Part shown: one piece after another, positions 13,904-64,000 of the stretch
Layout of the letters: each line of letters starts with the position of its first letter
How positions within the stretch are numbered: position 1 is the stretch's first letter
Assembly: GCF_019059575.1 (NCBI RefSeq)
Contig: NW_024881627.1
Coordinates: forward strand, 620,001 to 684,000
Length of the DNA: 64,000 nt
DNA from: Amphibalanus amphitrite
Lineage: Eukaryota > Arthropoda > Thecostraca > Balanomorpha > Balanidae
Direction of reading: 5' to 3'
The notes under the pieces: generated by a model
The model's input: only the letters and a program-made list of their open reading frames with translations
Told to the model about the DNA's origin: nothing
The model's database searches: none
Made by a program: the position numbers and the translations under genes

Positions 13904-13959
13904 CAGACTTGTAAACGACTCAAATTTTTTTTGAGTCGATTCTTTGTTTGAGTCTGGAA

Positions 13960-16287: not shown

Positions 16288-16365
16288 TTGCGGTACTTTA
16301 ATGCCATTTCGATTTTGCAGTACTTTAACGCCAACAAAGTTTTGCAGTGTTTTAACGCCTGAGCT
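16288..16365. repeat. Imperfect ~27-bp tandem repeat, three copies
   Basis: Three adjacent degenerate copies of TTGCAGTACTTTAACGCCAA-like sequence, differing at several positions. No function is apparent. Confidence 0.7.
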
Positions 16366-16819: not shown

Positions 16820-16958
16820 CAATTTTCCAAATGAATTTCGGGAACGGGTCCATCTGGTTCCAATGCTGACCTAGACCGGGTCTGACCGGTTCTGGAAATG
16901 TGCCAGTCAGACTGGGTCCGGGTCCGGGTCCCAAAATTTTCCAGTTTTGCCACCTCTA
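16820..16958. mobile_element. Probable solo hAT terminus
   Basis: The right edge reads CCAGTTTTGCCACCTCTA, the complement of TAGAGGTGGCAAAACTGG, a typical hAT start (TAGNG plus TGGCAAA). GGGTCCGGGTCC-type repeats precede it. No matching opposite end was seen in the neighbouring few kilobases, so it is likely a truncated remnant. Confidence 0.4.
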
Positions 16959-17336
16959 GTACCTAGGTACCAACTGCCAAATGCTTTTGGCTCATTAGGC
17001 GCCTGTGCCTGAGCCTCTGAGGCTCTTGTAAGTCTGAAATATGGAGTTAAGTGATGGCTAAAGCTGAGGGGGTGATCTAGCATTGATTATTAGGGTGTTG
17101 ATGGTGACTTGTAAACGACTCAAATTTTTTTGAGTCGATTCTTTGTTTGAGTCTGAAAATTTGAATCGATTCATCAAATGACTCATGATGTTAAATTTAA
17201 TTGATTCGAATCAACTCACGACTCATCAAGTTCCTCGATGAAGTGATTCGAATCAACTCATGACGCATCGAAAAACGGTTTGATTCTGAGTCGATTCACG
17301 AATCAACTCAGAGTCGTTTACAAGTCTGCATTGAGC

Positions 17337-23376: not shown

Positions 23377-23473
23377 TGCAGTAAGAGCAATCGAACTACA
23401 ATCCGTTTTACATTTACAATCATAAATGTAAAACGGATATATCCGTTTTAGAAGTTCGATTGCTCTTATTGCA
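23377..23473. mobile_element. Small palindromic MITE (~97 bp)
   Basis: TGCAGTAAGAGCAATCGAAC at the left is mirrored by a reverse complement differing at one base at the right (TGCAATAAGAGC...). The centre contains TCCGTTTTACATTTA and its complement, so the unit is nearly self-complementary. No clear target duplication was found, so the family is unassigned. Confidence 0.65.
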
Positions 23474-28098: not shown

Positions 28099-28106
28099 GT
28101 GCGCAC
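28099..28106. repeat. 8-bp target-site duplication (GTGCGCAC), left copy
   Basis: GTGCGCAC immediately before the left end is repeated exactly at 34062-34069 after the right end, almost 6 kb away. This defines the outer hAT insertion. Confidence 0.85.
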
Positions 28107-28394
28107 TAGAGTTGCAAAATTTCACTACCGCACTACCGGCATGCCGGTAATTTTTCACTACCGCAGGTTTATTCGTGGTAACTGGCATGTCTTGCCGGTA
28201 GCATGCCGGTATTTTTGATTTTGTGCAAAAAAAAAAAAAATATCAGCAAATGATTCAAACTTTGGACACTAAGAGGCTCTCAAATTGTAGTAACAGCAAT
28301 ATTAGCCACTGCAAGATACATTTTGTGGTAGAAGTTCCATTGCTAAGTGTAGGGGTAACACATGGACCTCAGCATTTCACACAATTCACAGGCT

Positions 28395-31853: not shown

Positions 31854-32889
31854 CCCCCGGCGCCCGACCGGAGAGTCAGTAGCGCTCCACTCACGACTTT
31901 TGGCGATAGCTCAAAACACCTTACAGCTAGAGGGCTGCTATTCGGCACACCTTATCTTTGCTTCCATACGCATCTTTGGAAACCAATTGCATTTCCGTCT
32001 CAGGTCAGAGCACTGACTTATGATGACGTCACACGTGAACCTCTGCAATAGTTCCAAAATACCGAAACTTCGCAATGCCCTCGGTGCCAGAGGAGCTGTC
32101 ACAGCGAGATGATACTTACAGGACCTAGTATCCTCTAGGAGTCTCAAAACTTTTATATCTCGGATTTCTCCTAGAGGTCACATGAGGTCAGGCCGATCGC
32201 GTGACGTCACCATTACAAGTCAATGGGGAAAATATGGAAACTGTAATTTTGACGAGAATGATCTTAACCTAGCTCAAGCACATGGAATCGCAATTTCATG
32301 CAATGCTTGCAATGTCCAATGCTTCACTTTTGCATCTTTAACCTAGCGTGACGTCATTCATGACGTCACAAAGGTCACAAGTTTTTTCGTCAATAACTCC
32401 TGACAAAATTGAACTGGCAAGTCGGAAAAGTCGCCAATAGACTCGGGAAGACCTACCGAATCGAATGATATACGTTATGACCTCCTCCGACCAAGTTCGT
32501 GACCTGAGTGCCTCTGACCTGGCTTTGACCCGATGTGAGCACCATATGTTGACCCCACCCAAACAAAAGTGTACTATTTTGACGCACCGGAGCATGACAA
32601 ACATGATGGTACTAAAATCGCGACTCTGCGCCGTTTTTTTCGGCAAAGTTATTTTTCAAAACCCAAAATCGTATTTTGGCCCTCGGGGCACTTGACCTGA
32701 CCCTCAGAGGCCACCAGTTGACCTGAGACTTTTTAACCGTGCATCAATCGCTGCGTCCCCGGTCCCGTAACGGCACACATGCTTGTTTTTCCCGCGAGGC
32801 TAGCTCAATTAGGGCGAGGGAGTCGTACCCGCCCACTCTCGCGGCGGGGGCGTAGGTATGTAAAAAAAAACTAAGAAGTCTGGTGATGA
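31854..32889 (-). mobile_element. Old piggyBac-like nonautonomous copy (copy F)
   Basis: Read on the minus strand, this aligns by eye with the elements at 52418 and 56023. It shares the GGCGGGTACGAC block near its left end, GAGCTAGC, TCGAATGATATA, paired TGACGTCA sites, several AGGTCA/TGACCT half-sites and the CCCCATTGAC segment. Its length is almost the same (~1.04 kb). The terminal G/C runs have decayed. The flanks read CTAA and TTGA rather than TTAA, so exact ends are approximate. No coding capacity is seen. Confidence 0.65.
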
Positions 32890-45669: not shown

Positions 45670-45730
45670 CAGGACCCCACGTCTATCAATTCAGCAGCAA
45701 CGAATATCAGCCTCACAGCAGCATATTTCG

Positions 45731-48700
45731 GGGTCTTTTGATTTGGCTGAAAATCGGTATACAGGGCCTCCTCGATGCGCTGATTCCGAAAATGTACCTC
45801 TTTAGGTTGGTATTTTGAACCGTTAACGAGTTAACGGCCAATTAACATTTTAACGGGAAACGGCGGGGTCTTTCGATTTGGCTGAAAATCGGTGTACAGG
45901 GCCTTCTCGATGCGCTGATTCCGAAAATGTACCTCTTTGGGGTGGTATTTTGCACCGTTAACGAGTTAACGACCAATTAACATTTTAACGGGAAACGGCG
46001 GGGTCTTTCGATTTGGCTGCAAATCAGTATACAGGGCCTCCTCGATGCGCTGATTACGAAAATGTACCTCTTTAGGGTGGTATTTTGCACCGTTAACGAG
46101 TTAACGACCAAATAAGATTTTAACGGGAAACGGCGGGGTCTTTCGATTTGGCTGAAAACCGGTATACAGGGCCTCCTCGATGCGCTGATTTCGAAAATGT
46201 GCCTCTTTGGGGTGGTTTTCTGCACCGTTAATGAGTTAACGATCCGTTAACATTTCAGCAGCATATATCGATTTCAGCAGCAAATTTTCGGGGTCTTTCG
46301 ATTTCGCTGAAAATCGGTAAACAGGGCCTCCTCGATGCGCTGATTCCGAAAATGTACCTCTTTGGGGTGGTATTTTGCACCGTTAACGAGTTAACGGCCA
46401 ATTAACATTTTAACGGGAAACGGCGGGGTCTTTCGATTTGGCTGAAAATCGATGTACGGGGCCTTCTCGATGCGCTGATTCCGAAAATGTGCCTCTTTGG
46501 GGTGGTATTTTAAACCGTTAACGAGTTAACGACCAATTAACCCGGCCGGGCCCGGGGGGTAATCCCAACCACCGCAGCCCGGGGGGGGGGCGTTTTTCGC
46601 CCCCCTGTCTAACTCCGTAAATAAGGGAGCTACGGAAACAAAAGCGATACCAAACGAAAGGTCCTTACGAGACGATTCTAATGCACCTAAACTTTTTGAC
46701 CTCAGGTCAATTTTCAAGGTCAGAGGTCAAGGTCAAAGGCCAAAACCGGCACATGTGTAGTGATCTCAAAGTAAGCCTTCTAGAGGACGGCAGGCTGCAT
46801 CAAACCGGCAAAATTGGGTGTCAAACGAAAGAAGAGAATCTGAGGATTCTAAAAATGTGCTCCAAATCAAAGGTCAAGGTCAAGGTCACGCTCAAAATTG
46901 ACCTCAAACTTGGCACTTTTTCACACATCTTGCGTGCTAACTTCCAAGATGTTTTGAAATGTTTTGAGGCTTATCAGTTCCCTATTTGTGGTTCATCTTA
47001 CGATACAAGGCTGCTCAAAGGTCAAGGTCACAGAAGAGTATCCCTGCTAGAGGCTATTTCACTGATTCAAGTTAGTAATAATAAATAAGACAATTTTGCC
47101 ATCCGGAAGCTCTAAATGAAGGCTTAGAGGAAAATAGATGCCAGATTCGTGATCAGCGGGTACAAATCCATCATAAACGACCTTTCATGTGTCAAGGTCA
47201 ACCAGAGGTCATTCGAGGTCACATGAGGTCAACATGAAAGTTGACCTTTTCCGAACAATATATATATCATTCGACGCGGCTTGACAAGGCGAATGCGATG
47301 GTACCACTGCCGTAGCTCTAGGACCATTTTTGTCGAAGTTATTTGCGAAAAACTAAAACCACATTTCGGGGTCGTTGACCTGACCTCTGACCTCAGGTCA
47401 CCAAAACTATTTTTCTATTTTTCTCTAGGTCAAACGCTACACAGCCGTGCTCGTAATTTGTCTTTATCTCTAAAACTCTATTTTTAGCAGCTATTTGAAG
47501 TTTGCGTCTGTGACGCCGATTTTTGCCGTGCAGGGGTCTAGAAAATTGGACCTTGTGACGTCATCAAGGGGGTTAGGTCCAAATTTTTTACTTCAGAAGA
47601 TGTCAAATTGATGGGAGAGCGTTCGGGAGTTATCGCAAATATTCGCCAGGGGGGGGGGGGCGAAAAACGCCCCCCCCGGGCCCGCGAGGGTTAACATTTT
47701 AACGGGAAACGACGGGGTCTTTTGATTTGGCTGAAAATCAGTATACAGGGCCTCCTCCATGCACTGATTACAAAAATGTACCTCTTTAGGGTGGTATTTT
47801 GCACCGTTAACGAGTTAACGACCAAATAAGATTTTAACGGGAAACGGCGGGGTCTTTCGATTTGGCTGAAAACCGGTATACAGGGCCTCCTCGATGCGCT
47901 GATTTCGAAAATGTGCCTCTTTGGGGTGGTATTTTGCACCGTTAACGAGTTAACGATCCGTTAACATTTCAGCAGCATATATCGATTTCAGCAGCAAATT
48001 TTCGGGGTCTTTCGATTTGGCTGAAAATCGGTTTACAGGGCCTCCTCGATGCGCTGATTCCGAAAATGTACCTCTTTGGGGTGGTATTTTGCACCGTTAA
48101 CGAGTTAACGGCCAATTAACATTTTAACGGGAAACGGCTGGGTCTTTCGATTTGGCTGAAAATCGGTGTACAGGGCCTTCTCGATGCGCTGATTCCGAAA
48201 ATGTACCTCTTTGGGCTGGTATTTTGCACCGTTAACGAGTTAACGACTAATTAACATTTTAACGGGAAACGGCGGGGTCTTTCGATTTGGCTGAAAATCA
48301 GTATACAGGGCCTCCTCGATGCGCTGATTACGAAAATGTACCTCTTTGGGGAAGTATTTTGCACCGTTACCGAGTTAACGACCAAATAACATTTTAACGG
48401 GAAACGGCGGGGTCTTTCGATTTGGCTGAAAACCGGTATACAGGGCCTCCTCGGTGCGCTGATTTCGAAAATGTGCCTCTTTGGGGTGGTATTTTGCACC
48501 GTTAACGAGTTAACGATCCGTTAACATTTAAGCAACATATATTGATTTGAGCAGCAAATTTGTTGGGTCTTTCGATTTGGCTTAAAATCAGTATACAGGG
48601 CCTACTCGATGCGCTGATTCCGAAAATGTACCTCTTTTGGGTGGTATTTTCGACTGTTAACGAGTTAACGGGAAACGGCGGGGTCTTTCGATTTGGCTGA

Positions 48701-48990
48701 AAAACGATATACAGGGCCTCCTCGATGCGCTGATTCCGAATATGTACCTCTTTGGGTTGGTATTTTGCACCGTTAACGAGTTAACGGCCAATTAACATTT
48801 TAACGGGAAACGGCGGGGCGGTCTTTCGATTTGGCTGAAAATCGGTGTACAGGGCCTTCTCGATGCGCTGATTCCGAAAATGTACCTCTTTGGGGTGGTA
48901 TTTTGCACCGTTAACGAGTTAACGACCCATTAACATTTTAACGGGAAACGGCGGGGTCTTTCGATCTGGCTGAAAATCAGTATACAGGGC
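45731..48990 (+). repeat. Direct array of ~134-bp monomers (left arm)
   Basis: About 16 units begin GGGGTCTTTCGATTTGGCTG, pass through ACAGGGCCTCCTCGATGCGC and ATGTACCTCTTT, and end with the CGTTAACGAGTTAACG palindrome and TTAACATTTTAACGGG. Spacers rich in CAGCAGCATAT/CAGCAGCAAATTT interrupt the array at about 46250, 47966 and 48526. The array is split by the piggyBac-like copy at 46541-47690. Minus-strand frames inside (repeating HIFEISASRRPC) are shadows of the monomer. Confidence 0.92.
46541..47690. mobile_element. piggyBac-like nonautonomous element, copy A
   Basis: It begins CCCGGCCGGGCCCGGGGGG; its other end, reverse-complemented, begins CCCTCGCGGGCCCGGGGGG. TTAA flanks it at 46537-46540 and 47691-47694. 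Sibling monomers read CCAATTAACATTTTAACG, which is the empty site with a single TTAA, so the 4-bp duplication is directly shown. Inside are a G-run/C-run hairpin (GGGGGCGTTTTTCGCCCCC), many AGGTCA/TGACCT half-sites, TATATCATTCGA (47264) and TGACGTCA (47556). No transposase is present. Confidence 0.88.
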
Positions 48991-50165
48991 CTCAGGGAAT
49001 CAGCGCATCGAGGAGACCCTGTACACCGATTTTAAGCCAAATCGAAAGACCCCCGAAAATTTGCTGCTGAATTCGATATATGCTGCTGAAATGTTAACGG
49101 ATCGTTAACTCGTTAACGGTGCAAAATACCACCCTAAAGAGGCACATTTTCGAAATTAACGCATCGATGAGGCCCTTTATACTGATTTTCAGCCAAATCG
49201 AAAGACCCGCCGTTTCCCGTTAAAATGTAAATTGGTCGTTAACTCGTTAACGGTGCAAAATACACCCAAAAGAGGTACATTTTCGGAATTAACGCATCGA
49301 GGAGGCCCTGTATACCGATTTGCAGCCAAATCGAAAGACCCCGCCGTTTCCCGTTAAAATGTTAATTTCTCGTTAACTCGTTAACGGTGCAAAATACTAT
49401 CCCAAAGAGGAACCTTTTCGGAATCAGCGCATCGAGGAGACCCTGTACACTGATTTTAAGCCAAATCGAAAGACCCCGAAAATTTGCTGCTGATATCGAT
49501 ATATGCTGCTGAAATGTTAACGGATCGTTAACTCGTTAACGATACAAAATACCACCCCAAAGAGGCACATTTTCGAAATCAGCGCTTCGAGAAGGCCCTG
49601 TATACTGATTTTCAGCCAAATCGAAAGACCCCGCCGTTTCCCGTTAAAATGTTAATTGGTCGTTAACTCGTTAACGGTGCAAAATACCACCCCAAGGAGG
49701 TACATTTTCGGAATCAGCGCATCGAGAAGGTCCTGTACACCGATTTTCAGCCAAATCGAAAGACCCCGCTGTTTCCCGTTAAAATGTTAATTAGCCGTTA
49801 ACTCGTTAACGGTGCAAAATACCAGCCCAAAGAGGTACATTTTCGGAATCAGCGCATCGAGGAGGCCCTGTATACCGATTTTTAGCCAAATCGAAAGACC
49901 CCGCCGTTTCGCGTTAAAATGTTAATTGGTCGTTAACTCGTTAACGGTGCAAAATACCACCCCAAAGAGGTACATTTTCGGAATCAGCGCATCGAGGAGA
50001 CCCTGTATACCGATTTTCAGCCAAATCGAAAGACCCCGCCGTTTGCCGTTAAAATGTTAATTCGTCGTTAACTCGTTAACGGTTTAAAATACCACCCCAA
50101 AGAGGTACATTTTCGGAATCAGCGCATCGAGGAGGCCCTGTAAACCGATTTTCAGCCAAATCGAG
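48991..50165 (-). repeat. Inverted array of the same monomer (right arm)
   Basis: From about 48991 the monomer reads in reverse complement (GAATCAGCGCATCGAGGAGG, then AGCCAAATCGAAAGACCCC). About nine units follow, with CAGCAGCA-type spacers near 49060-49100 and 49480-49520. Arms of unequal length suggest array expansion or contraction after the foldback formed. Confidence 0.9.
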
Positions 50166-50232
50166 AGACCCCGAAATATGCTGCTGTGAGGCTGATATTC
50201 GTTGCTGCTGAATTGACAGACGTCAGGACCCC

Positions 50233-50949
50233 GCGGACTGTGGCCGCCGGCCGCCGGCCAGCTGACCGGTGACCACACGGACGGTCGGTCAGTGTCTGAC
50301 ACGGAGACAGGGGGTCCCGCGGACACTGGGTGCGATAGTGACTGAATCTGACCAGTGGCAGTCCGTCGGTCCTGGGTCACTTGCGGCCACTGCAGTGGCC
50401 GCAGTGCACTGGTCAGAAATTTGAGACCAATACCTAATAGGCGATGTGAGGCCGAGAAAAGTGCTCAATGGTTACTGAACGTGAACAATGATCTTTGATC
50501 AGATATTGGTGATGCAACAGTTGGGCTTGCGGAAGGCATGCACTCAGCAAAAAATGGGGCGGGGGGCGGGGGGCAAACAATGTTTACTTTATGATGGTGG
50601 GAGAGGGGCCGATGTCGGGCAAAAGACATCTCCGTGGACCGGGATGATCCAAACATTGCGCATTCACTCGAAAATGTTCTTGTGCGAAAAGAAAAACCAG
50701 TACCGATGAAAGCGCTGTCAAACCGTCAGCTTATTTATTGGGAAAAAGAGAGACGTACTTTTTAACAGATCCTTTAAAAAGTGCTTTTTTAATTAGGATC
50801 ATCATGAAAAGTGGCTTGGAAAACAAATAAATTAGGTTATGAAGTGGCATAGCGTGCAGCTACAAACTGTGCAATCTTGTTGTTGGAAATTCGACCGTTT
50901 TGACAACCAACAAGGCGAAACTACCCGCCCTTAAGTGACCATCCCACCT
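50233..50949. other. Noncoding spacer
   Basis: GC-rich next to the foldback element, then AT-rich. No gene or defined repeat was recognised. Confidence 0.4.
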
Positions 50950-50953
50950 TTAA

Positions 50954-52321
50954 CCCTCGCCCCTCTGGGGTCTGCGTATAACACGCCCTACTGGGGGGGG
51001 GGGGCTCTTCATAGCCCCCCTCCTAATAACTCCGAAACTACTGGGTTGATCGTCAAAATTCAAACGGCTTCTGATAGCTCCGAAAAAAAAAACTGTCGAA
51101 CGATACCTAATTTCATTTACTTTGAGGTCACCGATGACGTCACAGGTCAGGTCAAAGTATAAATTATTAGTATTTTGGCTTGTTCATATTTTGGGCTCTG
51201 GCCGCCGTCTTACAGGTCAGATCAGGCTCATTTTTGGTTTACACACTCGTGAACAGATGCTTTAGATACTCTGAGGGTGCCAAACTTGCACTTTGATTTT
51301 CAGGTCAGGGTCAGGTCATCACAGGTCACGGAAATATTATATCATGCGTCGGTCACTTGACACGTGTTTTATGGTTCATTTAGGCCATAGATTTCGATTT
51401 TGATGTCGTTTGTGTCATTCGAGGTCATTTTGAGTTGAATTTAGCTTAGGTTAGGTCACTTTCAGGTCAAAAAGGTCAAATTTTGAAGTTTAAAATTTTC
51501 AACAACAAAGGTGTCTATTGGATGCAGTTTGAGCTCAGGAACATGATAATGCTATTTATATTGGTGTACGATGTCAAATACGTACTGAAAAATTTATTTA
51601 AGAAAATTATAATTTTGAATTTTTTGCAATAATGCGTATAATTTTTGAAGATATTTAGCTAAAACCTGCTAGAGTAAGCCATAAGCATATGTTCTATCAC
51701 ATATATTCCGTTTTTTTCGTAAAGTCAATTTTTTTTGAAAAAATATAAAAATACCTATAAATTTTGAATTTTATTATATGTAATTTTCGAAATTTTCGAA
51801 CTTTGGAATATCCGAGATGGCAGTTTGATAGCGCAGTCTATTTTGAGTCCTCTCATGCAAAGAAATCGGATCCAGCTTAAAAACTGAGCTCTTCGGAGCG
51901 ATTGCCGTGGTTCAATGTTTTGCGTCGAAATCGGCCGAACATGACGTCACTCTGACGCCATTGCCGGCCGACCTATGGTAGCTACGAAGCTCATATTTTG
52001 ACACAAGGTGTCAAATTGATGCAGCCGAAGGTACAGCCCACCGCTAAAGTAATGTAGGGTTTTACCAATCTCAACGGTTGGCTTTGACTGGCGATTGTTT
52101 AATGCGGAGTGATCGAAAAGAAGATGTCAATAGTTAAAGTTTCAGCTGCAAGGGTGACGATACATATAAGCTACATTAAAAGTTTCACTGTAGTCTGGCT
52201 AATCGTTCCTAAGTTTCAGAAGCAGAACATACCCATGACTGAAACCCCACATTACTTCTGCTGTGGACTGTACGGCGAGTTTGGCGTTGATACGTCAGGC
52301 GGTTACCCAGTGGGGCGCGGG
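50954..52321. mobile_element. piggyBac-like nonautonomous element, copy B (diverged)
   Basis: The left end CCCTCGCCCCTCTGGG follows TTAA (50950-50953). The proposed right end, reverse-complemented, is CCCGCGCCCCACTGGG and is followed by TTAA (52322-52325). A G-run/C-run hairpin lies just inside the left end, but the right side lacks one, so the right boundary is less sure. AGGTCA/TGACCT half-sites crowd 51120-51480, and TGACGTCA occurs near 51131 and 51943. The second half is AT-rich and unlike the other copies. Confidence 0.55.
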
Positions 52322-52417
52322 TTAACATTATATTTGAGTTGAGATAGCCAAATTGGGGTGGGGTCCTTGTCTCACAATCACCGGTTCCGGCACTCGCAAC
52401 ATCGATAAATGCCTTAA

Positions 52418-53460
52418 CCCTCGCCGGACCTATTGGTTTTCTACATACGCGCCGGCCGAGGGGGGGGGGGGGGGCGGGTACGACCCCCCCCCCCTCGCCG
52501 TTTCGCCCCTGGTGGAGCTAGCGCGTCGCGGAAAAAACGAGCGTGTGCGCCGTTACGAGACGCAGAGATTGGCACCCGATTTTAAGGTCCTAGGTCAACC
52601 GGTGACCTCTGAGGTCAGGTCAAGTGCCCCAGGGTACGGTTCAGTTTTTGGTGAATAACTTCGCAAAAAACGGCCGCAGAGCCGCGATTTTGGCAGCATC
52701 GTGTTCGCCTCGCTCAGGCGCGTCGAATGATATACTTTTTGTCCGGGTCAGGTCAACTTTGGGTGTTGACCTCAGGTCAAGGTCAGGTCAGCACCCCCAG
52801 GTCACGAAGTTGGTTGAAAGAGGTCATATCGCATATCATTCGATTCGGCAGGTCTTCCTGAGTCCATTGGTGGCTTTCTCGACTCGCTAGCTCAATTTGA
52901 TCAAGAGTTATTGACGAAAAACTAATATGACCTTGATGACGTCATAAATGACGTCACGCAAGGTCAACATTGCAAAAGTGACGCATCTAACCTTGCAAGG
53001 AGTGCATCAAATCATGATTCTGTGTGCTTGAGATAGTTGGAGATCGTTTCCGGCGCCAGAATAGCAGTTTTCATTTTTCCCCATTGACTTAGGTATAATG
53101 GTGAGGTTACGAAAATGACCTGACCTCATATGACCTTTAGGAAAAATCCGAGATATACAAGTTGTGAGACTCATAATGGATACTAGATCCTGCAAGTTTC
53201 ATTTCCCTGTGACATCTCCTCTGGCAGTGAGGGCGTTGCGAAGTTGCGACATCTGAAGACCGTGCAGAGGTTCACTTATGACGTCATAGGTCAGTGACCT
53301 GACCTGACCCAAAAATGCGGTTGGTGTCAAAAGATGCGGCTTGGATTAAAGGTCAGGTATGCCAAGTTTCAGCTCTCTATCGCCAGCGTGTTCGGAGCTA
53401 TCGCGAAAAAACCCTATGGGGGGGGCGGCACCCGCCCCCCCCCCCCTCGGCCGGCGAGGG
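52418..53460. mobile_element. piggyBac-like nonautonomous element, copy C
   Basis: The left end CCCTCGCCGG and the right end CCGGCGAGGG form the terminal inverted repeat. TTAA flanks it at 52414-52417 and 53461-53464. Long G-run/C-run hairpins lie just inside each end (about 52460-52498 and 53419-53448). By eye the interior holds about 20 AGGTCA or TGACCT half-sites, three TGACGTCA sites, TCGAATGATATA and TATCATTCGA. Open frames are broken and carry no transposase. It is about 97-98% identical by eye to the copy at 56023. Confidence 0.88.
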
Positions 53461-53464
53461 TTAA

Positions 53465-53836
53465 ATCGAGAATGCTTAATTTCAAAGTCGCAGCGCTTGG
53501 ATTCAGAGGGGCTAATGCATTTGAATGCCCCCTCTGAATTTGTACCCATCAGCGCAGATCTAGCTATTTTGAAATCGTGTACTAAAACCTTTGTAAAGAT
53601 GTGGTGGTATGTACCGCTTTGCGCGCAACATCTGTCGCACTTACCAAATTATTGCTTCCAAATGACGTCATAGGAACAGCAGAGGTCCCAAAAAATAAAC
53701 AAAAATAAAGTTTAATATCTCAAAAACCGGAGAATATTTTTCGGTGAAATTTGGTAAATGCTCATTTTTGCTCTTTCTGAACCATGTTACATCACTTTCA
53801 TGCCAATTCATTAACTTTTTTGAAGGTGGGAGGGTC
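53465..53836. other. Spacer between transposons
   Basis: Contains an inverted pair TTCAGAGGGG.../...CCCCTCTGAA at about 53501-53540 and AT-rich DNA. The inverted pair could be the remains of another small element, but no second end was identified. Confidence 0.35.
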
Positions 53837-53844
53837 CCCTTAAT

Positions 53845-54145
53845 CAGGGCTGCGGAGTCGGAGTCGGTGTCGGAGTCGGAGTCGGTCGGAGTCGACAGTT
53901 GTGACCGGAGTCGGAGTGGGAGTCGGAGTCGATTTTAGAAACCCGAGCCGGAGTCGGAGTCGGAGTCACCGAAAATCTGTCGACTCCGCAGCCCTGCTAG
54001 GTCTGCGGAGTCGGAGTCGGGAGTTGGAGTCGGTCGGAGTTGACAATTCGGCCCGGCGTCGGAGTCGGAGTCGGAGCTGGTTTTTGAAAACCGGAGTCGG
54101 AGTCGGAGTCGGAGTCGCCGAAAATCCATCGACTCCGCAGCCCTG
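53845..54145. mobile_element. Dimeric hAT-type MITE (GGAGTCGGAGTCGG)
   Basis: It begins CAGGGCTGCGGAGTCGGAGT and ends with the complement CGACTCCGCAGCCCTG. An exact 8-bp duplication CCCTTAAT flanks it (53837-53844, 54146-54153). It consists of two head-to-tail units: 53845-53996 ends in its own CGCAGCCCTG, and a second unit starts CTAGGTCTGCGGAGTCGG. GAGTCG hexamers fill both, which explains the Glu-Ser-Arg-type frames. CAGGGCTGCGGAGTCGG-type MITEs are known from many animal genomes. Confidence 0.85.
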
Positions 54146-54153
54146 CCCTTAAT

Positions 54154-56018
54154 GACAAAACTTCGTCACGGTAATACTACTGATAAAGACTTCAACCACT
54201 TATGTATTCAATTTGAAACGTGCATTGCTCTGTATGCTTTTTTTGTTATTTCGACGCTCGCCTGTGCCCAGACCGTCCTTGGCTAACGTTTATCAGCGTT
54301 TTGTCCATTATCTGCTTGAGGCTAGAATTTAAAGCGCCTCATTACGGAATAAGCGCACTGAATAAACGACTGTAAGACCAGACGACGATACAAATACCAT
54401 ATCATCAGATACTGCTATTATCACCAATAGCTAAATGTTAATTGCCTTGATATAATCAGAACTATTTGAAGGCAAACAAGGTCGTTTCTGAGCTGGTCTG
54501 CTCTAATCATGCTGTCAGATTATGCGTTTGGGCAGCTGAAACGTGCAAAAATGATACCATCTAATAGCAAAATGCCCCGGGAAATTCCAAAATGCACGCA
54601 CTAGGCAAAGTAATGCTAACCGTTTGTCTGAATCGTTCCACATTTCCATACTTTAGCAGCAGACGCTGGCGAATTATTGTGAAACGAGTTATAATCATGC
54701 AACTAAATATCATATTATGCAAATCAGCAGCACAACTTTGAAGACGGCATAATTGCATATAAATGCCTGGACCACCTTTGTGGGAGTGAATATATCCAGC
54801 TTATTATACTGCAGTTTATATCTGTGTTTATCTATTGCTCTGCGAAAGATATAGCTAAATGTTCTCAGTTTGTATGTGAATTTACATACCTATTCGTGGG
54901 CTGTAAAAAGCATTTATTATAAATTGTAGTGTGGCTTCGAGCGAGTCACGTCCGACCGGGTCACCAGTGCGCCCCCACCGGGCCGCACGCCGGGTCACCA
55001 GTCTGCTCCCTGCCAGTGTCGGAGGGTGGCGGCGCGCGAGCCCGGTGGTCCGACCTCCACCGTGGGAGCGGCCGCTCGCCATTACGGCCGATAGTGATGG
55101 AGCGCCACTGATGGAGACTGCCGCAGTGGGGGCCACCATTAGACAGCGTGCCACACGCAGACACTGCGCTTCAATTATGGACCCAATTGGCTAGCGGTGC
55201 GGTCGATAGAATGGTAGCAGTGGGTGGCTCCAATTCACAGGAGGAATTTATTGATTGAGTTGTGGGGTCAAGTTTAGGCATTAAATCATTGGTACCTATT
55301 TCTACATGACATAAGTGGTTTATGATTGCTTTGCTCTGGCGTCGATGATAATCAGAGTTATTGGTTCTTCAATGGCAGAGCGAAGCTAACCCATCATAAA
55401 ATCGGAGTATGTAGGTAGCAGTTGTTTGGTTTGAGGACCATACCCGTTTTCCAAGCACCTTGGGTTGTGAGTCATTCACTGATGTCATGTTCATGGAATG
55501 CCAAAAGTCGGCTCACACATGCGACCGGTGGCAGCGGCGAGCACTTTCCAAACATGTTTTCCCTGTGCGAACATGGTGTGATCTAAACTGAGGGAAACAT
55601 TTCAATGTCAACATGCACAATTACATGCTCCGCGCTGAAGTGGTCACATGTCATGTCGGACTTTTGGGGCGTAGCTTCTGTTTGATGATAAGATGATATG
55701 CAATGTGTCTGCAAACAGCATTGTATGTTTTCTGTTGATTTAGCTTGGCTGCTCACTTTGTCCTTCCGAGGGGAAGTGAAAAAGAAAAGCGGATTTGATT
55801 AAAAACAGCCTTACGTGTAGAGATTATAGTCGAGCGTTTTGATGATGACGATGCATTTCAACATTTTCCATTTTACGTACCATTTATTTACAAACATGCA
55901 GGTGTGTGAGTTCAGGAGGTACGGTAGTATCTTTTTTTTTGGGGGGGGGGGAGGATACGTGACACTGGACGACCATCCCCGGTGTCTATAAAAATGTCTA
56001 CTGCCTGGTGCAGGCATC
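54154..56018. other. Noncoding DNA
   Basis: Mostly AT-rich, with a GC island at about 54930-55100 and a T-run/G-run near 55932-55951. No gene, RNA or repeat with ends was recognised. Confidence 0.4.
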
Positions 56019-56022
56019 TTAT

Positions 56023-57057
56023 CCCTCGCCGGACCTATTGGTTTTCTACATACGCGCCGGCCGAGGGGGGGGGGGCGGGTACGACCCCCCCCTCGCCGTT
56101 TCGCCCCTGGTGGAGCTAGCGCGTCGCGGAAAAAACGAGCGTGTGCGCCGTTACGAGACGCAGAGATTGGTACCCGATTTTAAGGTCCTAGGTCAACCGG
56201 TGACTTCTGAGGTCAGGTCAAGTGCCCCAAGGTACGGTTCAGTTTTTGGTGAATAACTTCGCAAAAAACGGCCGCAGAGCGCCGATTTTGGCAGCATCGT
56301 GTTCGTCTCGCTCAGGCGCGTCGAATGATATACTTTTTTGTCCGGGTCAGGTCAACTTGGGGTGTTGACCTCAGGTCAAGGTCAGGTCAGCACCCCCAGG
56401 TCACGAAGTTGGTCGAAAGATGTCATGTCGCATATCATTCGATTCGGCAGGTCTTCCTGAGTCCATTGGTGGCTTTCCCGACTCGCTAGCTCAATTTGAT
56501 CAAGAGTTATTGACGAAAAACTAATATGACCTTGATGACGTCATAATTGACGTCACGCAAGGTCAACATTGCAAAAGTGACGCATCTAACCTTGCAAGGA
56601 GTGCATAAAATCACGATTCTGTGTGCTTGAGATAGTTGGAGATCGTTCCCGGCGCCAGAATAGCAGTTTTCATTTTTCCCCATTGACTTATAATGGTGAG
56701 GTCACGAAAATGACCTGACCTCATATGACCTTTAGGAAAAATCCGAGATATACAAGTTGTGGGACTCATAATGGATACTAGATCCTGCAAGTTTCATTTC
56801 CCTGTGACATCTCCTCTGGCAGTGAGGGCGTTGCGAAGTTGCGACATCTGAAGACCGTGCAGAGGTTCACTTATGACGTCATAGGTCAGTGACCTGACCT
56901 GACCCAAAAATGCGGTTGGTGTCAAAAGATGCGGCTTGGATCAAAGGTCAGGTATGCCAAGTTTCAGCTCTCTATCGCCAGCGTGTTCGGAGCTATCGCG
57001 AAAAAACCCTATGGGGGGGGGGGCGGCACCCGCCCCCCCCCCCTCGGCCGGCGAGGG
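56023..57057. mobile_element. piggyBac-like nonautonomous element, copy D
   Basis: The ends CCCTCGCCGG and CCGGCGAGGG match copy C, but the 4-bp duplication is TTAT (56019-56022 and 57058-57061) instead of TTAA. G/C-run hairpins, AGGTCA arrays, TGACGTCA sites and TCGAATGATATA are all retained, and the interior differs from copy C at only a few percent of positions by eye. High identity implies recent movement of this subfamily. No coding sequence is present. Confidence 0.88.
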
Positions 57058-57061
57058 TTAT

Positions 57062-60000
57062 GCCGTTATGGTGCACGTACACGTTCGAAGAAAGCTGGTC
57101 GCTTTGCACTAAGAGTCTCTGATGGCAAGATGAGAAGCGAAATTTCCTATTCAATATAACATTTAGCATTCCGTGCAATGGTGTTAACTACATGTGCTTG
57201 TTAGTACTTCCGCTATAACAGTTTACTTACCTAAATCAAATGCTATATAGTTGAGCCTATTGTTTCGTTTATAGGCACGTCTGGAAACCGGCGTTAAACG
57301 TTTTTTTGCCAGTCCAACAATTGATGAAGAATGCGGACGTGAATAAATCGCTCCTATTTAGGATGTGGTAACAACGATTCTCAAGCCACTGAAGCAGCTG
57401 AAGTCAACGATTCACCACTTTCTAGCTCCCCAGCGTTGTTGGCTTCCCACACCCCTGTTGCGTGCCGGATTCACACCGTTTTTCCGTTGTGCACCTGCCA
57501 CCGCCATTGGCTAAGCCTCACTCGTGAAGCGGTTAGGAGACCACCGCCGGTGGCGGATTTCCGACACCTACTTACCACCCAGCGCGCTGGCCGCCGTCTG
57601 ACCTCATGTCGCCGGCTGAGCCCCCCGAGCCGGCGCGCCGCACCGCCCCGTCACCCACCGCTGCGGTCGGGCTGTCCGGCCGCCGGCTGATTATCCCCGT
57701 GTTTAGACAATGCAGCCTGCGTGCTCGGCCCGCTACCGGACGGCGCCCACACGGAGCCGGTAGTCGCCGAAACGGAGCCGGTAGTCGCCACTGAGCCGGA
57801 TTACGGCCACAGAGCGGCAGGATCACGGGCTTTTTGCTGTCATGGCTTGGCGCCGGTGATTCGTTGTTGATTTTTAACGGGATGGGTCTGACTCGGCAAG
57901 TGCTTGCAGGTGGGCTCAGTTCAGATTCTTTTGGTTATTGCTGAGAATGCGCGCGGTGTTCTTGTGGTCTGATGTGTGTGATATTGGGTTTTCGCTTATG
58001 AATGCAGCCGACTGAATCAACTGTGTTCTTCACATTACCCATTTTTTCCTTCAAACCATCGCTTACTCTATTCTCCCTTAGTTGCCTCCATCTCTCCTCT
58101 ATATGTACTCCTGAATAGCCCCAAAAGTCTGCAATGCGAAACGAAATATCTCACTGTTGCGCAGCCTCCTTTGGGTGACTCACTCAACAGCTCGAGAAGT
58201 TTGTGTGCAGAAACTAGGCTAGAATGGTTTGGGATGCAAGATTTACACGAAGCCAGTGCGTCTTAACTAGAGCTTTTATCGGGATCTTGTGAAGTGTTAA
58301 CTGTTATCAATAAGGTTAATAAAAGCCTAACTCGCATTGGTCAAAGATTCCATGGCATTTTTGCGCCATTGGCTAACTGGCCATTAAAGTCGAAGCAGTC
58401 TATATCGACTTTTTCACGCTTCACATATTTCAGATTAATGTAGGTAACTTTATCCCTAATCTGACATGTAAAACCGGGTGTATTTTAAACTCGACACCCT
58501 AGTTTATCAATAGTGTGATCGATATCGTCTGTCGCACTCCCAAAGGGAAATATTTGCCCCCTCTGGAAGAATGTCACGGCTCATTGAGCGCTCATAAAGG
58601 AATCACCATAAAGCCTCTCCCAGTCGGAGCGCGGAAAACTCCCTTTCCCTAATCGCGACAAAAGCACAATCAGTGCGATCGCTCAGGGGGCCGGTGCGGT
58701 GAAGTGCTCGCTCAAGTGTAGCCCCCGGTTGGCAGCTCCCGGCCGGCCGGCCGGCCATTCAGCGGCGCCGCCTGCAGCTCGCCGAGTATGCCGCGCCGCG
58801 CCGCCCAATGCCGCCCCTCTGCCGACACTGAGCAGCGCTGTTGTGACGTGCCCGGCGCTCCCATTTGGCCGACAGCCGCGCGTTATCCCGTGAGCCGCTC
58901 AGTTGTCCGCTTTGCCCCGTATTCATACCTGTGTTGGCTATTTACTGGCCGGCGCCCGATGCCGAGATGCTATCTCCCATTGGCGCCGCGGGAAAGTGTA
59001 TCGCATTGGGCGCGAAACAGGCGGGACGAAAAATGGCGCGGCCGAGACGCGCGGCGCATCTGGCAGGCCGACGGCGGGGAAGACGGATCAGGCACGTGGC
59101 ATTGTGCCCGCTGTCCCTCCGACGGGCATCCCAGGGGAAAAGGGGCGCGATGTTATCGCACTAGCCGGCCCAGACTGTGGGCCTGCTCTGTGCGACCTAC
59201 GATTGGAGCTCAGTACTTTGTGTCGAACCTTCTCTGTGCGGCAGGCGTTATAATGACCCTTCAGTCTTCACTGTGCGGTGAGTGTGACATTTGGCCGTAA
59301 ACCTATATCGACCGACTGAGGCTCGTTTGAGTTCGAAAGCCATATGGCAGACGAATGTGTCCTGTCTTTAAGCTACGGATGGTTGGGCTAGCTACGTCAC
59401 TTTGTGGATAAATTTGATTTCGCACCCTCCCAACGTGCCTCCAGGGTGCCTGGGGTGACTCTCCCGACTGATGATCTGCGTCTCACGTTCCTCTGACGGT
59501 AGCCGGCGCGGCAGCCCCAGTCACCGAGTCATCGGCGGCTCCATTCAGCCGACACGGCGCGCTCGGCACGTCTCGGGGCTCTGTCTGCAGCTCGCGGCTC
59601 GCGCGCACGTCTCGCCGGCGCTGCAGACCGGCGCTGTGCACGGCCTCCGGCGGACGGGAGCGGCGGCAGCGCGGATACCACCTGCTGCCCGCGCGGCGTG
59701 CACGCACGGCCCGCGGTGCGCCGGGCACGCCCTATGGCACTTTGTGCCGACGGAAAGTGTCAGATGACGTTATTGGTCAGAGACGGATCGAATGTGGCCT
59801 GAATAATGTCACTGCTGGTGCTGCTGCTGCAGTGCCTATGAGATGCTTCATAAGAGAGCAACCATACTGCCGCGCCGGTCTGATTGCCCGTGGAAAAACA
59901 CGAGCCTCGCTTCTGAGACCATTCAGCATTCCATTCGGTTTCAGTGTTCGCTGTTCGTGCAGCGACGCTTAATTTTGGAAAAATAGATTAGGTACTGAGC

Positions 60001-62320
60001 TACAAAGAGCTTCGACGCTCTCGACCTAAATACGTCACACGGTGTTTCCCACAAATCTCTCAAAACGAATTATCGCCCTGACATGACTCATTATCTGGGG
60101 ACGTTTCCCTGTTTTGTTTCCGACATCACTCCCCCTGTTTTTCCTGTATGCCTGCCTCACGCTGTTGCTCTTCGCCCGTCAATCAGCTTCCCCTATCGCC
60201 GTCGCAGACCGCCCCAAATCTCAGCAAATTGACTGCGGTCGGTCTGCGGCGGTCGATCCCCGCTCGAGTTAGCTCCGTGACAGCTCCGGGACGGTGTGGG
60301 CCGCGCCCGTCTCCAAAAACAGCGTCAGGTCGGGCGGCGCGGGCCACGCGTCGGCCCGATCTGCGGACAGGAGTGCCCTGTTTTTCTGCTCTCTCCTGGG
60401 AGCGGCCGGCCGGGAGGAGCGGTGAGTGGAAGGGTTTGACAGCCGGCCGGCCGCAGAGCGAGCCTGGCCCAGTTTCTGCCGGAGAATAATGCCGAGCTCG
60501 GCCAGTCAACAATGGGCGGCGGTCAGCCGACAGTCGACTTTTCACCCCGTTTGGGAGGGTCGGCAGGCTGTTTGGGCGGCCCGTCTCCGTCCATCAGCGG
60601 GGCAAATGGAGGCGCCGGGCCAACTGGGGCGCTCTGGCGTGATACTGGGCGCGCAGGTGGTGGGCCGGGAGCTCCACACAGGTGCTTTACCCGCGTCATT
60701 GTGTCTGGGGCCCAGAGCACCGGCATTAGCCGGTGCCGAAAATTGGGCACTGATTGTCGAGCGGTACTCCAAAAGTGGGGAAATATTCATAGGCGGCCAT
60801 TTTTCGTTGGTCACTTATCACAGCGGGCGTCACCCTGTCCATTGGTTTCGCCTTTGTGTCTGTGAACTGCTGTATTGGACTATACCAATATCCAATTTCT
60901 ATCATTGAGTGTTATTGAACGCGAGCACCTGCTGTCTAGTCTCTCTTCTCTATAGGCGAGTGCGATGTCGTGTGGACAGTGCTATCACCGATGCTGGAGT
61001 GACGAGCGCGCGGAGACTGCAATAAAGCACAGCAGAGTACCTCCCTCCGCGGGCGGGCGGCTCAGCTGAAACTGCACCGATAGATCCGCGGGCAAAAACG
61101 GCCGGCTGTGACGCGCCCGACGCCCGGCGACGGACACCCCTTCTGCGGCGGATCGGGGCACACGGCCGCTGTAAGTACTCACCACTTACCGGGCCCCAGA
61201 GAGTCACCACAAATAAACAGGTGGCCGCGCCGGTGCTCGTCACTGCCGCGCCGGTCTCGCCGCCGCCGGGTGACACGCGCCGCCTTTGACCGTCGCGGCG
61301 GCAGTCACGCGGCGACGGTGCGCCGTTTTTGTGTGGGCCGCGCCGGTCTGTGAGCTGTGAGGGATCAGCGCCGCTGGGACGCCCGGCTGAATGTGATCGT
61401 GACGGCGCGCGGCGCGGGCTGACGGTGAGTGTCACCGCCGCGCTACAGGGAGAGCAGGAGGGAGGGTAGAGCGTGGAGATCGGCTAGCTAGAGACTGGAG
61501 CGAGATGTATCTGGAACAGATGGGTATCAAACTGTCCAACGCACTACTCCCTCGCATAAAATATCGCGTGACATTAGCTTCCGGTCAGTTAACAGGCGCA
61601 ATGCGCATGGCGCATTATTTCCCCTTTTCACTTAGCAAAGTTCTGTGGATCTACGAGAGCAAGGCTGTGGATCTAGCATGCAATAAGAGGTGAATACCTA
61701 TGTATGTTATATTGCTCATTTCACTAGTGCACGCTCGTAGGTGAGCAGCTGCACACTCAAAGCTATAGGTCATCTGATTCGAGTTTGATGTCATCATCCC
61801 TTTGAGCCGGATGTGTCAGTTCAGGAAGGACCACCACTATAGGTGACCACACAGGTAGTAACATTCCATGCAAGAGACGTTCTCCGTATAAAGGTGGGTC
61901 ACAATCGTCCCTGCGTGAATCAGGTGCGTTCTCCGTATCACATCCTCCGTATACCATCTGGAGCGCCTGGTGTCGGCTCCCGGCCCAGACGCCGTACCTC
62001 CTCCGTCCACTGCAGGCTCCAGATGGCCGCACCCACAAACAGCGGCGCCGGCTGACTGGTCGGACGACGCTCTGGCTCCGCGGCGGCAGAATCGGAATCA
62101 CGCCCGGCGGCCCCCGCGCGCGCGGATGGCGGGAACGGGCAGGTCGCGCCGCGCCAAAAAGGCGCGAAACGGCCCCCGCTGTCCGTCAGCAGAGGTCACT
62201 GACGTGTTGACGGCGTACACTGCAGTGCACCGGACAGGGAGCGGCTGGTGACGGTACTGTCTGTCGTCGAAACTCTCACATAGTGGTGATCGTAGTTATC
62301 GTTTTATGCACTCGCCACTC
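57062..62320. other. Noncoding DNA with several GC islands
   Basis: Islands lie at about 57540-57800, 58690-59110, 59490-59720, 60190-60680, 61030-61400 and 61960-62200, with AT-rich DNA at 57100-57420 and 57850-58640. GGCCGGCCGGCCGGCC is at about 58741-58756. Frames in the islands overlap on both strands and show no recognisable domain. Island density resembles the DNA around the Hes promoter, so enhancers or an unseen promoter are possible. No gene is called. Confidence 0.45.
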
Positions 62321-62324
62321 TTAA

Positions 62325-63316
62325 CCCTATTCCTGGCGGGCTCCGCCGGGACAAGAAACTGGCGGGGGGGGGGGGGGCCGATTCGGCCCCCCCCTGAGAT
62401 CTCGAGAACGAAGCAAGATAGCGACAAGCGGTAAACGGCATCGGATACGCACGGCCAAGATCTACAATTTTTACAAAGGTCATTTTCAGGTCAGGTCAAA
62501 GATGACGTCACAGGGGTCGAAAAAGTCAAAATGGCGGCGCTAGATATGGAGAGAGTTTTCTCGAATAACTTTCGAATTAGTCAAGATAGGAACAAACTAA
62601 GGGCATCATCGTGATCCTCTCGTCAATCCGCATCGAATGATATATATGTTGACCTCGAAAGGTCAAGGTCAAAGGTTGACCTCAGGTCACGTGACCTCGA
62701 GGTCATCATGTATATCATTCGATGCGTCTTGACGAGCTGAACACAATGAGACCATCCACGCGTCTGTATCTTGTTCCTGTACGGAGTTATTGGCCAAAAA
62801 CCTTTGGTGACCTTTGATGACGTCACATGACCTCACAGCTGCCCAACAGCAAAACAGACCTCAAGGTAGTGAAGGTTGATCGTATATGAAGTCATGTATG
62901 GTATATGGGGCCATTCCGACCCGTTTTAGTGGTAAAAACAGGGAGTTGATTTTTCCCCCATTGACTTATAATGGGGAGGTCGCGAAATTGACCTGACCTT
63001 AGGTCACCGATATCAAAATTCCGAGATATACAAATTGCACATACTGGTACCCTAACTAAACCCTGAAGAGAAGAAATTGATCGGTCAAAAACTCTAGCTC
63101 TGGCGTGATTGCAAACTTTTCTGAGGTAGGGTCACCAAACCGCCTCTGGTGACCTGACCTGAGGTCAGATCAACTCAAAATTTTCAGACATGTTGCGTAG
63201 AAGCCTTTTAGGAAAAGTCAGAAAATTTGAGCTTCCTAGCTCAACGCGTTTGGGAGAAATAACCAAAAAACCTCAGGGGGGGGGCTCCTGAGGCCCCCCC
63301 CCCGCCAGGAATAGGG
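62325..63316. mobile_element. piggyBac-like nonautonomous element, copy E
   Basis: A perfect 16-bp terminal inverted repeat, CCCTATTCCTGGCGGG, is flanked by TTAA at 62321-62324 and 63317-63320. G-run/C-run hairpins lie just inside each end (GGGGGGCCGATTCGGCCCCCC on the left; GGGGGGCTCCTGAGGCCCCCC on the right). The interior has many AGGTCA/TGACCT sites, TGACGTCA near 62503 and 62818, and TCGAATGATATA with TATATCATTCGA (62633-62720). Overall sequence is otherwise unlike copies C and D. No transposase is present. Confidence 0.9.
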
Positions 63317-63319
63317 TTA

Positions 63320-63577
63320 AGGCCTGGCTACACTATGCGTTTTCTGCGTGCGTTTTTTTGCGAATTTGCGTGTTTTGCGTAATATCGTTCTAGAAAAAAG
63401 TTATTATTAATATAATTTCCTTAATATTTGTATAAAAGTTAAAACGTTATATTAATTTAAAGTTTGCATGAAAAAGTATAACAAAAGCGTTATGTCGTTT
63501 CTTTCTAGAGCGATATTCCAAAAATCACGCAAACTCGCAAAAAACGCACGCAGAAAACGCATAGTGCAGCCAGGCAT
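63320..63577. mobile_element. Harbinger-like MITE (258 bp)
   Basis: Imperfect ~38-bp terminal inverted repeats contain GCCTGGCT, CACTATGCGTTTTCTGCGTG and CGTTTTTT, and extend into an AT-rich centre. TTA flanks it at 63317-63319 and 63578-63580. The left TTA plus the first base of the MITE is also the right TTAA of copy E, so the two insertions share a junction. The superfamily call rests on the 3-bp TTA duplication and end type. Confidence 0.68.
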
Positions 63578-63580
63578 TTA

Positions 63581-64000
63581 CTCGCTGGGGTGCTAGGGGT
63601 GACTCAAAGGGCATAATCGGGAAATGATCTTCACCACCTCACCACACACCGTCCGAAATTGGTGGAAATTTTGCACCTCCCTCGCCTGGAAAAGAAATTC
63701 GTCAGTTTCGTTATAAGTTTGCCTTAACTTGCAAAACAACACGCATAAGAAAACTAAACCTGAAATATTTTTTCAACCCTGGAAAACTTTTTGGGGAAAT
63801 AACCATGTTCCCACGGAGTGTCCAATGCCGTCTTGAGCGATCCACCAATGCTTATTGCTCATACTGTGTGTGTAGGCAGCGAGCGAATTGTGTGAATCTT
63901 GTGTTACACATTATCATTGAACTATTATATGAGCAAGCCATCAGATTTGATGTACTTGCCTCGACTTCTTAGTCTGAGTAAGATATCTTTTAAGGGTTAT
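63581..64000. other. AT-rich noncoding end of the window
   Basis: No gene, RNA or repeat with ends was recognised. Confidence 0.4.

Follow-up and report, generated by a model that had tools for sequence, protein, structure and literature searches.

AGGTCA half-site arrays in a barnacle piggyBac lineage appear to be under purifying selection and may act as subterminal sites for mobility

Introduction

Binding sites for host factors inside transposons are usually seen as by-products or as cases of later co-option. The 64,000-bp stretch of the Amphibalanus amphitrite genome analysed here (contig NW_024881627.1, positions 620,001 to 684,000; hereafter the window) raises the question of why six short transposable elements with diverged backbones are all packed with the hexamer AGGTCA. 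Nuclear receptors are the obvious readers of this half-site, and AGGTCA-rich repeats of a similar type may occur in other invertebrates.

An original prediction, made from the letters of the window, had described the six elements as non-autonomous and piggyBac-like, and had suggested that their shared motifs are under selection for transposition, transcription or host-factor binding. Following this up, we find that the half-sites appear, from sequence statistics, to be under purifying selection in moving lineages and to decay in dead copies, and that arrays of the same kind lie inside both ends of a transposase-bearing element. We then weigh what may read them.

Results

The elements, labelled A to F (Table 1), lie where they had been predicted, with TTAA on both sides of A, B, C and E, TTAT on both sides of D, and decayed flanks around F. 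Counting AGGTCA on both strands, which defines a half-site throughout, they hold 98 half-sites in 6,624 bp, as against 37 in the remaining 57,376 bp of the window (135 in total). Dinucleotide-preserving shuffles average 0.49-0.61 half-sites per element, and the observed counts were reached by 0/1000 shuffles in all six, which excludes pure chance as the source of the density and agrees with the predicted excess over shuffled sequence. When the window was scanned for CCY...RGG ends flanked by TTAA-like duplications, A to E came back together with one weak extra pair (26699-30099, CTAA), and each 500-bp segment (step 250) with at least six half-sites overlaps one of the six elements.

Table 1. 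Positions of the elements and of their parts; positions are those of the window unless a contig is named, and SEQ tokens stand for sequences.
Feature	Position	Strand	Description
Element A	46541..47690	+	non-autonomous piggyBac-type; TTAA duplication; 21 half-sites; 1 TGACGTCA
Element B	50954..52321	+	TTAA duplication; 11 half-sites, all within first 525 bp; 2 TGACGTCA
Element C	52418..53460	+	TTAA duplication; 20 half-sites; 3 TGACGTCA
Long left end of C	52418..52494	+	tip CCCTCGCCGG, 28 extra bases with final CGCCGG repeat, then G-run/C-run palindrome
Left half-site cluster of C	52592..52622	+	AGGTCA, about 20 bp, AGGTCAGGTCA
Short right end of C	53418..53460	-	tip and palindrome as in left end, without the 28 extra bases
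Element D	56023..57057	+	TTAT duplication; 19 half-sites; 3 TGACGTCA
Element E	62325..63316	+	TTAA duplication; identical 14-bp tips; 18 half-sites; 2 TGACGTCA
Central imperfect palindrome of E	62606..62749		arms end in TATATCATTCGA around half-site array; self-match 73.5%, 155 aligned columns
Best conserved core block of E	62946..63037	+	CCCATTGACTTATAATGGG, TGACCTGACCT, TCCGAGATATACA; 83.7% identical to D over 92 bp
Element F	31854..32889	-	decayed C/D-like copy; 9 half-sites, 24 near-miss hexamers; 4 TGACGTCA
Transposase-bearing element	C33:447036-451750		between TTAA sites at positions 1173 and 5892 of C33:445860-452643 (L078+L080+L081)

The six are genuine non-autonomous elements of the piggyBac type, a class borne out by the TTAA duplications, by an empty site at A and by the asymmetry of the ends. 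Less one TTAA, the flanks of A make up a unit of a 135-bp tandem array, with one mismatch in 44 bp (at 45957 and 49675), and TTAA stands on both sides of 27 of the 30 D copies fetched, TTAT on both sides of two (the window copy, 56019-57061, and L025), and one copy has ACAA/TTAA. Tips are inverted repeats that start with CC[CT]; in the transposase-bearing element described below, one of them starts with CCT. Left ends carry about 28 bases more than right ends between tip and palindrome, closing with a partial repeat of the tip; in C the left end is CCCTCGCCGG, 28 bases and CCGAGGG, and the right end CCCTCGCCGGCCGAGGG. Counted on the sequences, the difference is 28 in C and D and 26-28 in A, E and the transposase-bearing element, where the length of the G-run is ambiguous. 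Folding is 1.6 to 3.1 standard deviations better than the shuffle mean at 7/8 ends (z of -3.06 for the left end of C, 52418-52507, and -2.27 for its right end, 53401-53460), the exception being the foreign right end of B. The G-run of the left palindrome has 15 bases in C (52460-52474) and 11 in the near-identical D (56065-56075), consistent with slippage.

In the piggyBac of Trichoplusia ni, as described in the accessible part of PMC7351741, ends of 35 and 63 bp (LE35/RE63) differ by 28 bp through a duplicated segment plus an insertion of 17 bp, and the cysteine-rich domain binds a palindrome that lies within both ends. The barnacle elements are alike in their TTAA target, CCC tips, palindrome inside both ends and 28-bp end difference through an insertion and a duplicated segment, and in having a related transposase with the three catalytic aspartates aligned; they differ in their half-site arrays, G-run/C-run palindromes and very many short derivatives.

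C and D are 96.75% identical. With half-sites, cyclic AMP response elements (CREs) and G/C tracts masked, A matches C at 72.6% over 106 bp (4e-12) and blocks common to C, D, E and F remain, while E-D alignments span 943 to 984 bp with 60-63% of the non-half-site bases conserved. The backbones are thus diverged as predicted, but it is too much to say that they barely resemble each other. From base ~1081 (~52034) the right part of B is foreign to its own family: the 39 matches scored besides the window copy (40 scored) reach at most the first 1085 query bases, one of them, on C667, has a separate 245-bp match to B bases 1080-1324, and three fetched B-family copies have a normal palindrome at the right end.

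Further copies and families were sought in the 807.55-Mb host assembly, with 40 matches scored for each of A, B, D and E; the unscored first-look candidates, which are not confirmed copies, number 2384 (A), 6946 (B), 2322 (D) and 1504 (E). All 40 scored matches are 98-100% identical for D, 99-100% for E and 95-100% for A, and those of B, itself excepted, are 89-91% identical; the 30 fetched D copies, window copy included, fall at 98.4-100%. An ends-only scan of 67 loci (268,878 bp), which are no random genome sample because they had been picked for D, E or a transposase, gave 76 pairs, namely 30 E, 29 D, 1 C and 16 others. Six of these 16 are 0.9-1.2-kb elements of other families, with 13 to 20 half-sites in 6/6, which their tips split into three families (L015/L021/L031/L049; L046; L048); three, tipped with CCCATTA and 2.65-2.77 kb long, bear a transposase and hold 2, 4 and 0 half-sites; the remaining seven are longer pairs spanning a D or E copy. 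Together with a further CCCATTA-tipped element of 3.07 kb with 4 half-sites (L077), this makes four of that type (2.65-3.07 kb; 2, 4, 0 and 4 half-sites). In L011, L039 and L044, D or E copies are nested within other TTAA-flanked half-site elements, and at L069:671-3343 a CCCATTA-tipped piggyBac with an open transposase frame sits inside a C-like half-site element.

Selection on the half-sites was judged mainly from corrected retention between families and from a near-miss test, because choosing exact sites in one copy inflates other conservation counts. The effect applies to the comparison of E with the short elements L004 and L012, in which other positions are shared at 65% and 63% respectively and half-site positions at 89%, and in which 11/15 (L004) and 13/18 (L012) of the half-sites are intact, a count that no circular shift reaches. 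To correct for ascertainment, per-lineage survival was taken as the root of backbone identity in seven family pairs. After correction, neutral half-site retention is exceeded both ways by E-L012, E-L046 and L012-L046 (1e-4 to 0.018). Slower loss of half-sites than of their neighbours, which the original prediction had made a check, is thus borne out for part of the pairs. L004 and L046, at 96-97% identity, belong to one family and hence are not independent.

The near-miss test is alignment-free and counts the excess of near-miss hexamers per exact site, for which the neutral expectation is 1.5 at a survival of 0.8; C and D are counted separately although they are one family. Eight of the nine living elements lie far below this expectation, at -0.07 (A), 0.01 (L048), 0.03 (L012), 0.15 (L015), 0.21 (L046), 0.36 (C), 0.37 (E) and 0.44 (D), whereas the dead-copy controls, F and the C-like copy in L069, stand at 1.61 and 1.15. 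With ACGTCA excluded, near-misses in A to E are indistinguishable from shuffles (0.17-0.83) and those in F differ (0.015). Decay at CpG was considered as the cause of the differential loss and is excluded by a CpG ratio of 1.04.

Across pooled alignable pairs, conservation is 0.81-0.88 within the six half-site bases and 0.47-0.71 in the nine on each side. As about 0.80 would be expected without selection for chosen exact-site positions at 64% identity, what the profile chiefly brings out is that conservation of the hexamer does not extend to any flanking base. Against D, dead copies have no significant excess of intact half-sites (4/9, 0/2 and 5/8), with the exception of D to F (9/19) and C to F (10/20; shift fraction ~0.01). 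From F to C, half-sites are kept in 9/9 cases, a count inflated by picking exact sites in one copy.

Positions as well as letters are kept. With positions counted from the left end, 84 coincidences within 6 bp occur between half-sites of different families, where rotation gives 24.9 (0/2000); dropping any one element leaves the fraction at or below 0.004, and none of ten other words falls below 0.087. A partner within 6 bp is found in 84/284 half-site comparisons (29.6%, null 8.1%) as against 150/15,294 (0.98%, null 0.45%) for 6-mers without half-site or CRE pieces. Pairwise half-site chains are weaker than this pooled test, with 4/10 pairs at or below 0.05 and the best at 0.036. The left cluster lies 164-201 from the left end in A, B, D and F and 153-174 in E. 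Many spacings occur among the 45 close half-site pairs of A, B, D, E and F, the commonest being period 5 (9), DR0, a direct repeat (6), and TGACCTnAGGTCA (6). Descent from a simple tandem repeat is excluded by the variable spacing and strand of the sites and by the distance from the left end that they retain between families.

The predicted extended SF-1/ERR/FTZ-F1-type site, TCAAGGTCA, is not supported as a general feature. Its counts from A to F are 6, 0, 2, 2, 1 and 0, with none in B and F, and among 78 half-sites of A, B, D, E and F the preceding bases are YCA in nine and TNA in ten, six half-sites standing directly behind another AGGTCA. Positions -1 to -3 are conserved at 0.60-0.68, near background, so the 5' extension is neither frequent nor conserved among the elements tested.

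The assembly holds at least 116 matches to PF13843 (116/232 first-look candidates scored), many of them in open frames of 550-680 codons. Groups of identical scores, with frames of 569 to 680 codons, point to an apparently recent and rich piggyBac complement. Among 11 fetched transposase loci (L069-L079), in which ends were resolved for L069, L072, L073, L077 and the L078 element, dense arrays flank the gene only in L078; those of L069 belong to the C-like copy that hosts the inserted CCCATTA element. At L075:307-495 a cluster of four half-sites lies ahead of another piggyBac transposase frame.

The element of L078, on contig C33, has a left end made of CCCGCGCCCTGGTG, 27 bp with a repeat of most of the tip, and a palindrome, and a right end of CCTTCGCCCTGGTG and palindrome. 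Its open frame of 666 codons (645 from the first ATG) matches PF13843 (DDE_Tnp_1_7) at 1e-59 over profile positions 5-349 of 349, with no second Pfam domain above cut-off, and aligns with T. ni piggyBac (6x67) at 1.3e-56 from residue 137 to the cysteine-rich C-terminus; D268, D346 and D447 of T. ni are aligned to aspartates. Arrays belong also to this transposase-bearing element, which the original prediction had not foreseen: the outer blocks hold 15 half-sites in 677 bp on the left (22.2/kb) and 11 in 507 bp on the right (21.7/kb), and the inner blocks, from left to right, a single one in 553 bp, a single one in the 1,998-bp frame (0.5/kb) and 5 in 980 bp. A second copy on C431 has both ends where predicted from C33; a third on C257 has one end at the predicted place, the 5' end being absent there (C257:113371-113700, L082).

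The short element L012, whose outermost left 178 bp lie beyond the fetched locus, aligns with the C33 element in a block of 499 bp at 99.6% identity and another of 515 bp at 98.6%, and lacks its middle 3.5 kb. It matches both arrays with the gene gone, which indicates that short elements form when the gene is deleted and the two arrays stay; such is the case for this one copy of one family and probably for the rest.

As predicted, TGACGTCA, the CRE, occurs in all six elements of the window, and TATATCATTCGA in all but B. From A to F the CRE counts are 1, 2, 3, 3, 2 and 4 against shuffle means of 0.01 to 0.02, and were reached in 5, 1, 0, 0, 0 and 0 of 1000 shuffles. The CRE is not universal, with 0 in the C33 transposase-bearing element, L004, L012, L046 and L048, and its left-anchored position is not conserved between families; within C/D/F, 3/3 are kept from C to F and from D to F and 2/4 from F to C or D. 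The predicted selection on shared motifs is supported by signs of it on the half-sites, in retention and near-misses.

Counts of TATATCATTCGA from A to F are 1, 0, 1, 1, 2 and 1, with zero elsewhere in the window. In E it ends the arms of a central palindrome that is clear only there, the inverted-repeat score being 160 against a shuffle maximum of 80; C and D lie slightly above shuffles, A, B and F do not, and the exact ATATCATTCGA arm is lacking in B, L004, L046, L015 and L048. The core of A matches that of C on the reverse strand. A flip of A's core is disfavoured because A's half-sites are left-anchored like those of the others, and we infer instead that the match reflects an ancestral palindromic core.

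Elsewhere, the 135-bp tandem array extends over 45679-50223 in two oppositely oriented parts (45679-46541 against 50223-49361, 87%), with A inside the first, and an imperfect palindrome (73%) at 63316-63581 adjoins the right end of E; other palindromes lie at 15607-15814 (86%) and 23377-23473 (70%). At 13906-17264, 160-bp direct repeats (96%) 3.2 kb apart surround a tyrosine-recombinase fragment (15124-15453, + strand; PF00589 at 1.2e-5, just under cut-off), possibly an element of the DIRS, Ngaro or Crypton type. A HES/hairy-type gene with HLH and Hairy_orange domains and a terminal WRPW lies at 9786-10556 (+). Pfam searches of 10 other open reading frames of the window gave one weak integrase match, Rfam gave 0 matches at gathering score, and neither phage records (blastn) nor the viral contigs scanned gave any. 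A bacterial intergenic repeat (L001) from a prokaryote contig scan was considered and is unrelated to the elements.

Discussion

Taken together, we propose that these elements may be non-autonomous members of one piggyBac lineage. Its transposase-bearing member would have the gene in the middle and an AGGTCA array 0.15 to 0.7 kb inside each end, and the short elements would have lost the gene and retained both arrays, as seen in one copy of one family and presumed for the others. Purifying selection, to judge from the statistics above, may keep the half-sites in lineages still moving, with decay once a copy is dead. The half-sites would serve mobility as subterminal cis-sites: some factor shared by every family might bind the arrays in germ cells or the early embryo and, once bound, let the transposase find, open or pair the ends. 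Selection on the exact hexamer, inside both ends and with or without the gene, favours a role in movement over one in transcription only. Because the hexamer is constant while tips and terminal palindromes differ by family, a host protein is the likelier shared factor, and spacing that is not fixed would suit a reader of single half-sites or a tolerant receptor; COUP-TF is said to tolerate varied half-site spacing. The best candidate would be a nuclear receptor taking single half-sites at any spacing and in any orientation. That the arrays are subterminal cis-sites for mobility, read by a shared trans factor that is probably a host nuclear receptor, seems to us about an even bet. A stronger form, in which movement of the lineage depends on a host nuclear receptor, the arrays are obligatory and a large share of the host's AGGTCA sites is supplied by the lineage, we put forward tentatively and with some doubt.

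Several results weigh against this proposal. After correction for ascertainment, the three pairs with D show no significant excess retention (0.056 to 0.53), and L015-B exceeds neutrality one way only (0.0083; other direction 0.12). B is also the outlier of the nine living elements in the near-miss test (0.92), and the dead copies in that test are two. Young copies have no significant depletion of variants in half-sites, shared variants being few: 1 per 110 half-site positions against 10 per 766 others in D and 0 per 105 against 6 per 737 in E, with singletons at 5/110 against 69/766 (p 0.14) and 5/105 against 36/737 (p 1). Coincidence measured from the right end is weak (0.06-0.09), and positional coincidence as such is partly raised by common descent alone and can take in neighbours from within one array as partners. 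The dominant spacing or orientation expected of a classical receptor dimer is absent among the 45 close pairs. Among the 11 loci fetched, no transposase-bearing partner turned up for the A, B, C/D or E family, the L012 family alone having a candidate mobilising partner with DDE_Tnp_1_7. Finally, words of CCCATTGACTTATAATGGG are intact at 0.83-0.91 against 0.61 (265/432) for AGGTCA, and because this block is better conserved the half-sites are one of several constrained parts.

The main and serious rival reader is the transposase itself, for which the half-sites would be accessory sites, bound by its cysteine-rich domain or another part, that load or restrain it near both ends, a role that subterminal sites play elsewhere among transposons. 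Arrays inside both ends of the transposase-bearing element suit this. The T. ni domain reads TGACGCATG and a cryptic TGACGTACG (accessible text of PMC7351741), which share TGAC with TGACCT and TGACGT with TGACGTCA, and in the alignment its recognition residues R567 and K569 fall on R and K (Y558 on R), while subterminal transposase sites are described as restraining activity in piggyBat (PMC11707139, in part). The TGACG-type sites of the T. ni domain and the identical residues at R567 and K569 keep this rival in play. However, the expected site of the domain, the terminal palindrome, is a family-variable G-run/C-run where AGGTCA is invariant, and half-sites extend 0.7 kb inward without fixed spacing; we regard this reading as unlikely, if less so than the others below. 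The arrays might instead be promoter or enhancer parts of the transposase gene that short elements retain as recent deletion products. The right array of the C33 element does lie about 1 kb upstream of the frame start, and the D and E families are young, their copies being 98-100% identical, but the array downstream of the gene is equally dense, at 22.2 per kb against 21.7, and none of the window's elements has a transposase gene, which makes this rather improbable.

Without any selection, arrays could have been born once by slippage and then inherited, with further slippage and recombination among copies renewing them. Spacings of period 5 and period 6 are the most frequent (15/45 close pairs), and the elements nest and recombine, as in the foreign right part of B. 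This reading is already unlikely, and by a wide measure, as the two dead copies alone have near-misses close to neutral expectation, half-site positions are kept between families, and three family pairs lie above neutral retention in both directions. We think least of all of maintenance through benefit to the host, with the arrays as ready-made hormone-responsive enhancers, which we judge highly improbable. It is true that 98/135 AGGTCA words of the window lie within the six elements, and that in human cells Alu-borne nuclear-receptor sites are bound (PMC1785376); but host benefit works on single insertions, and decay in the two dead copies runs at roughly the neutral rate. Near-misses are almost absent in moving lineages, whereas dead copies lose the hexamer, a contrast that suggests the element itself needs it.

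The nearest published parallel found is the CMITE group of Acropora corals, TTAA-flanked families whose tips differ and whose interior is better conserved, which the authors leave unexplained (PMC2872659, accessible part). The barnacle elements are alike in both respects: D and E are 83.7% identical over 92 internal bp with tips agreeing in 6/14 bases, the tips of A, B and C being more alike. They differ in length (0.9-1.4 kb against about 100 bp), and the accessible text of PMC2872659, from whose description CMITE is compared here, mentions no half-site arrays and describes no transposase-bearing parent sharing most of the internal region. Alu likewise spreads AGGTCA-type sites (DR2, a direct repeat, and others) genome-wide, but it is a retroposon whose DR2 elements arise largely through CpG deamination (PMC1785376), whereas here each living element has 11-24 half-sites and signs of selection. 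The CERP2/CELE2 miniature inverted-repeat transposable elements (MITEs) of Caenorhabditis are related families that share one factor and act in germline promoters; there HIM-17 was shown experimentally and host genes co-opted the elements (PMC9757741, in part), while our case is built from sequence. The hoboVA element of Drosophila simulans is also a non-autonomous DNA transposon with sites for developmental factors, but is hobo-related and, in the accessible text, without mention of a dense array of a single half-site (PMC5913719). Among the papers listed on AGGTCA or receptor sites in transposons and on piggyBac MITEs, which covered neither subscription papers nor preprints and were judged largely by title and opening of the abstract, no parallel appeared besides the coral CMITEs.

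This lineage offers a ready experimental system, as it combines a transposase that appears intact with that transposase's own arrays and with short derivatives. The proposed role of the arrays is one candidate answer to the coral CMITE puzzle of why the interiors of piggyBac MITEs can be conserved above their tips. If a nuclear receptor reads the arrays, each insertion of a living element would add 11-24 receptor half-sites to the host genome.

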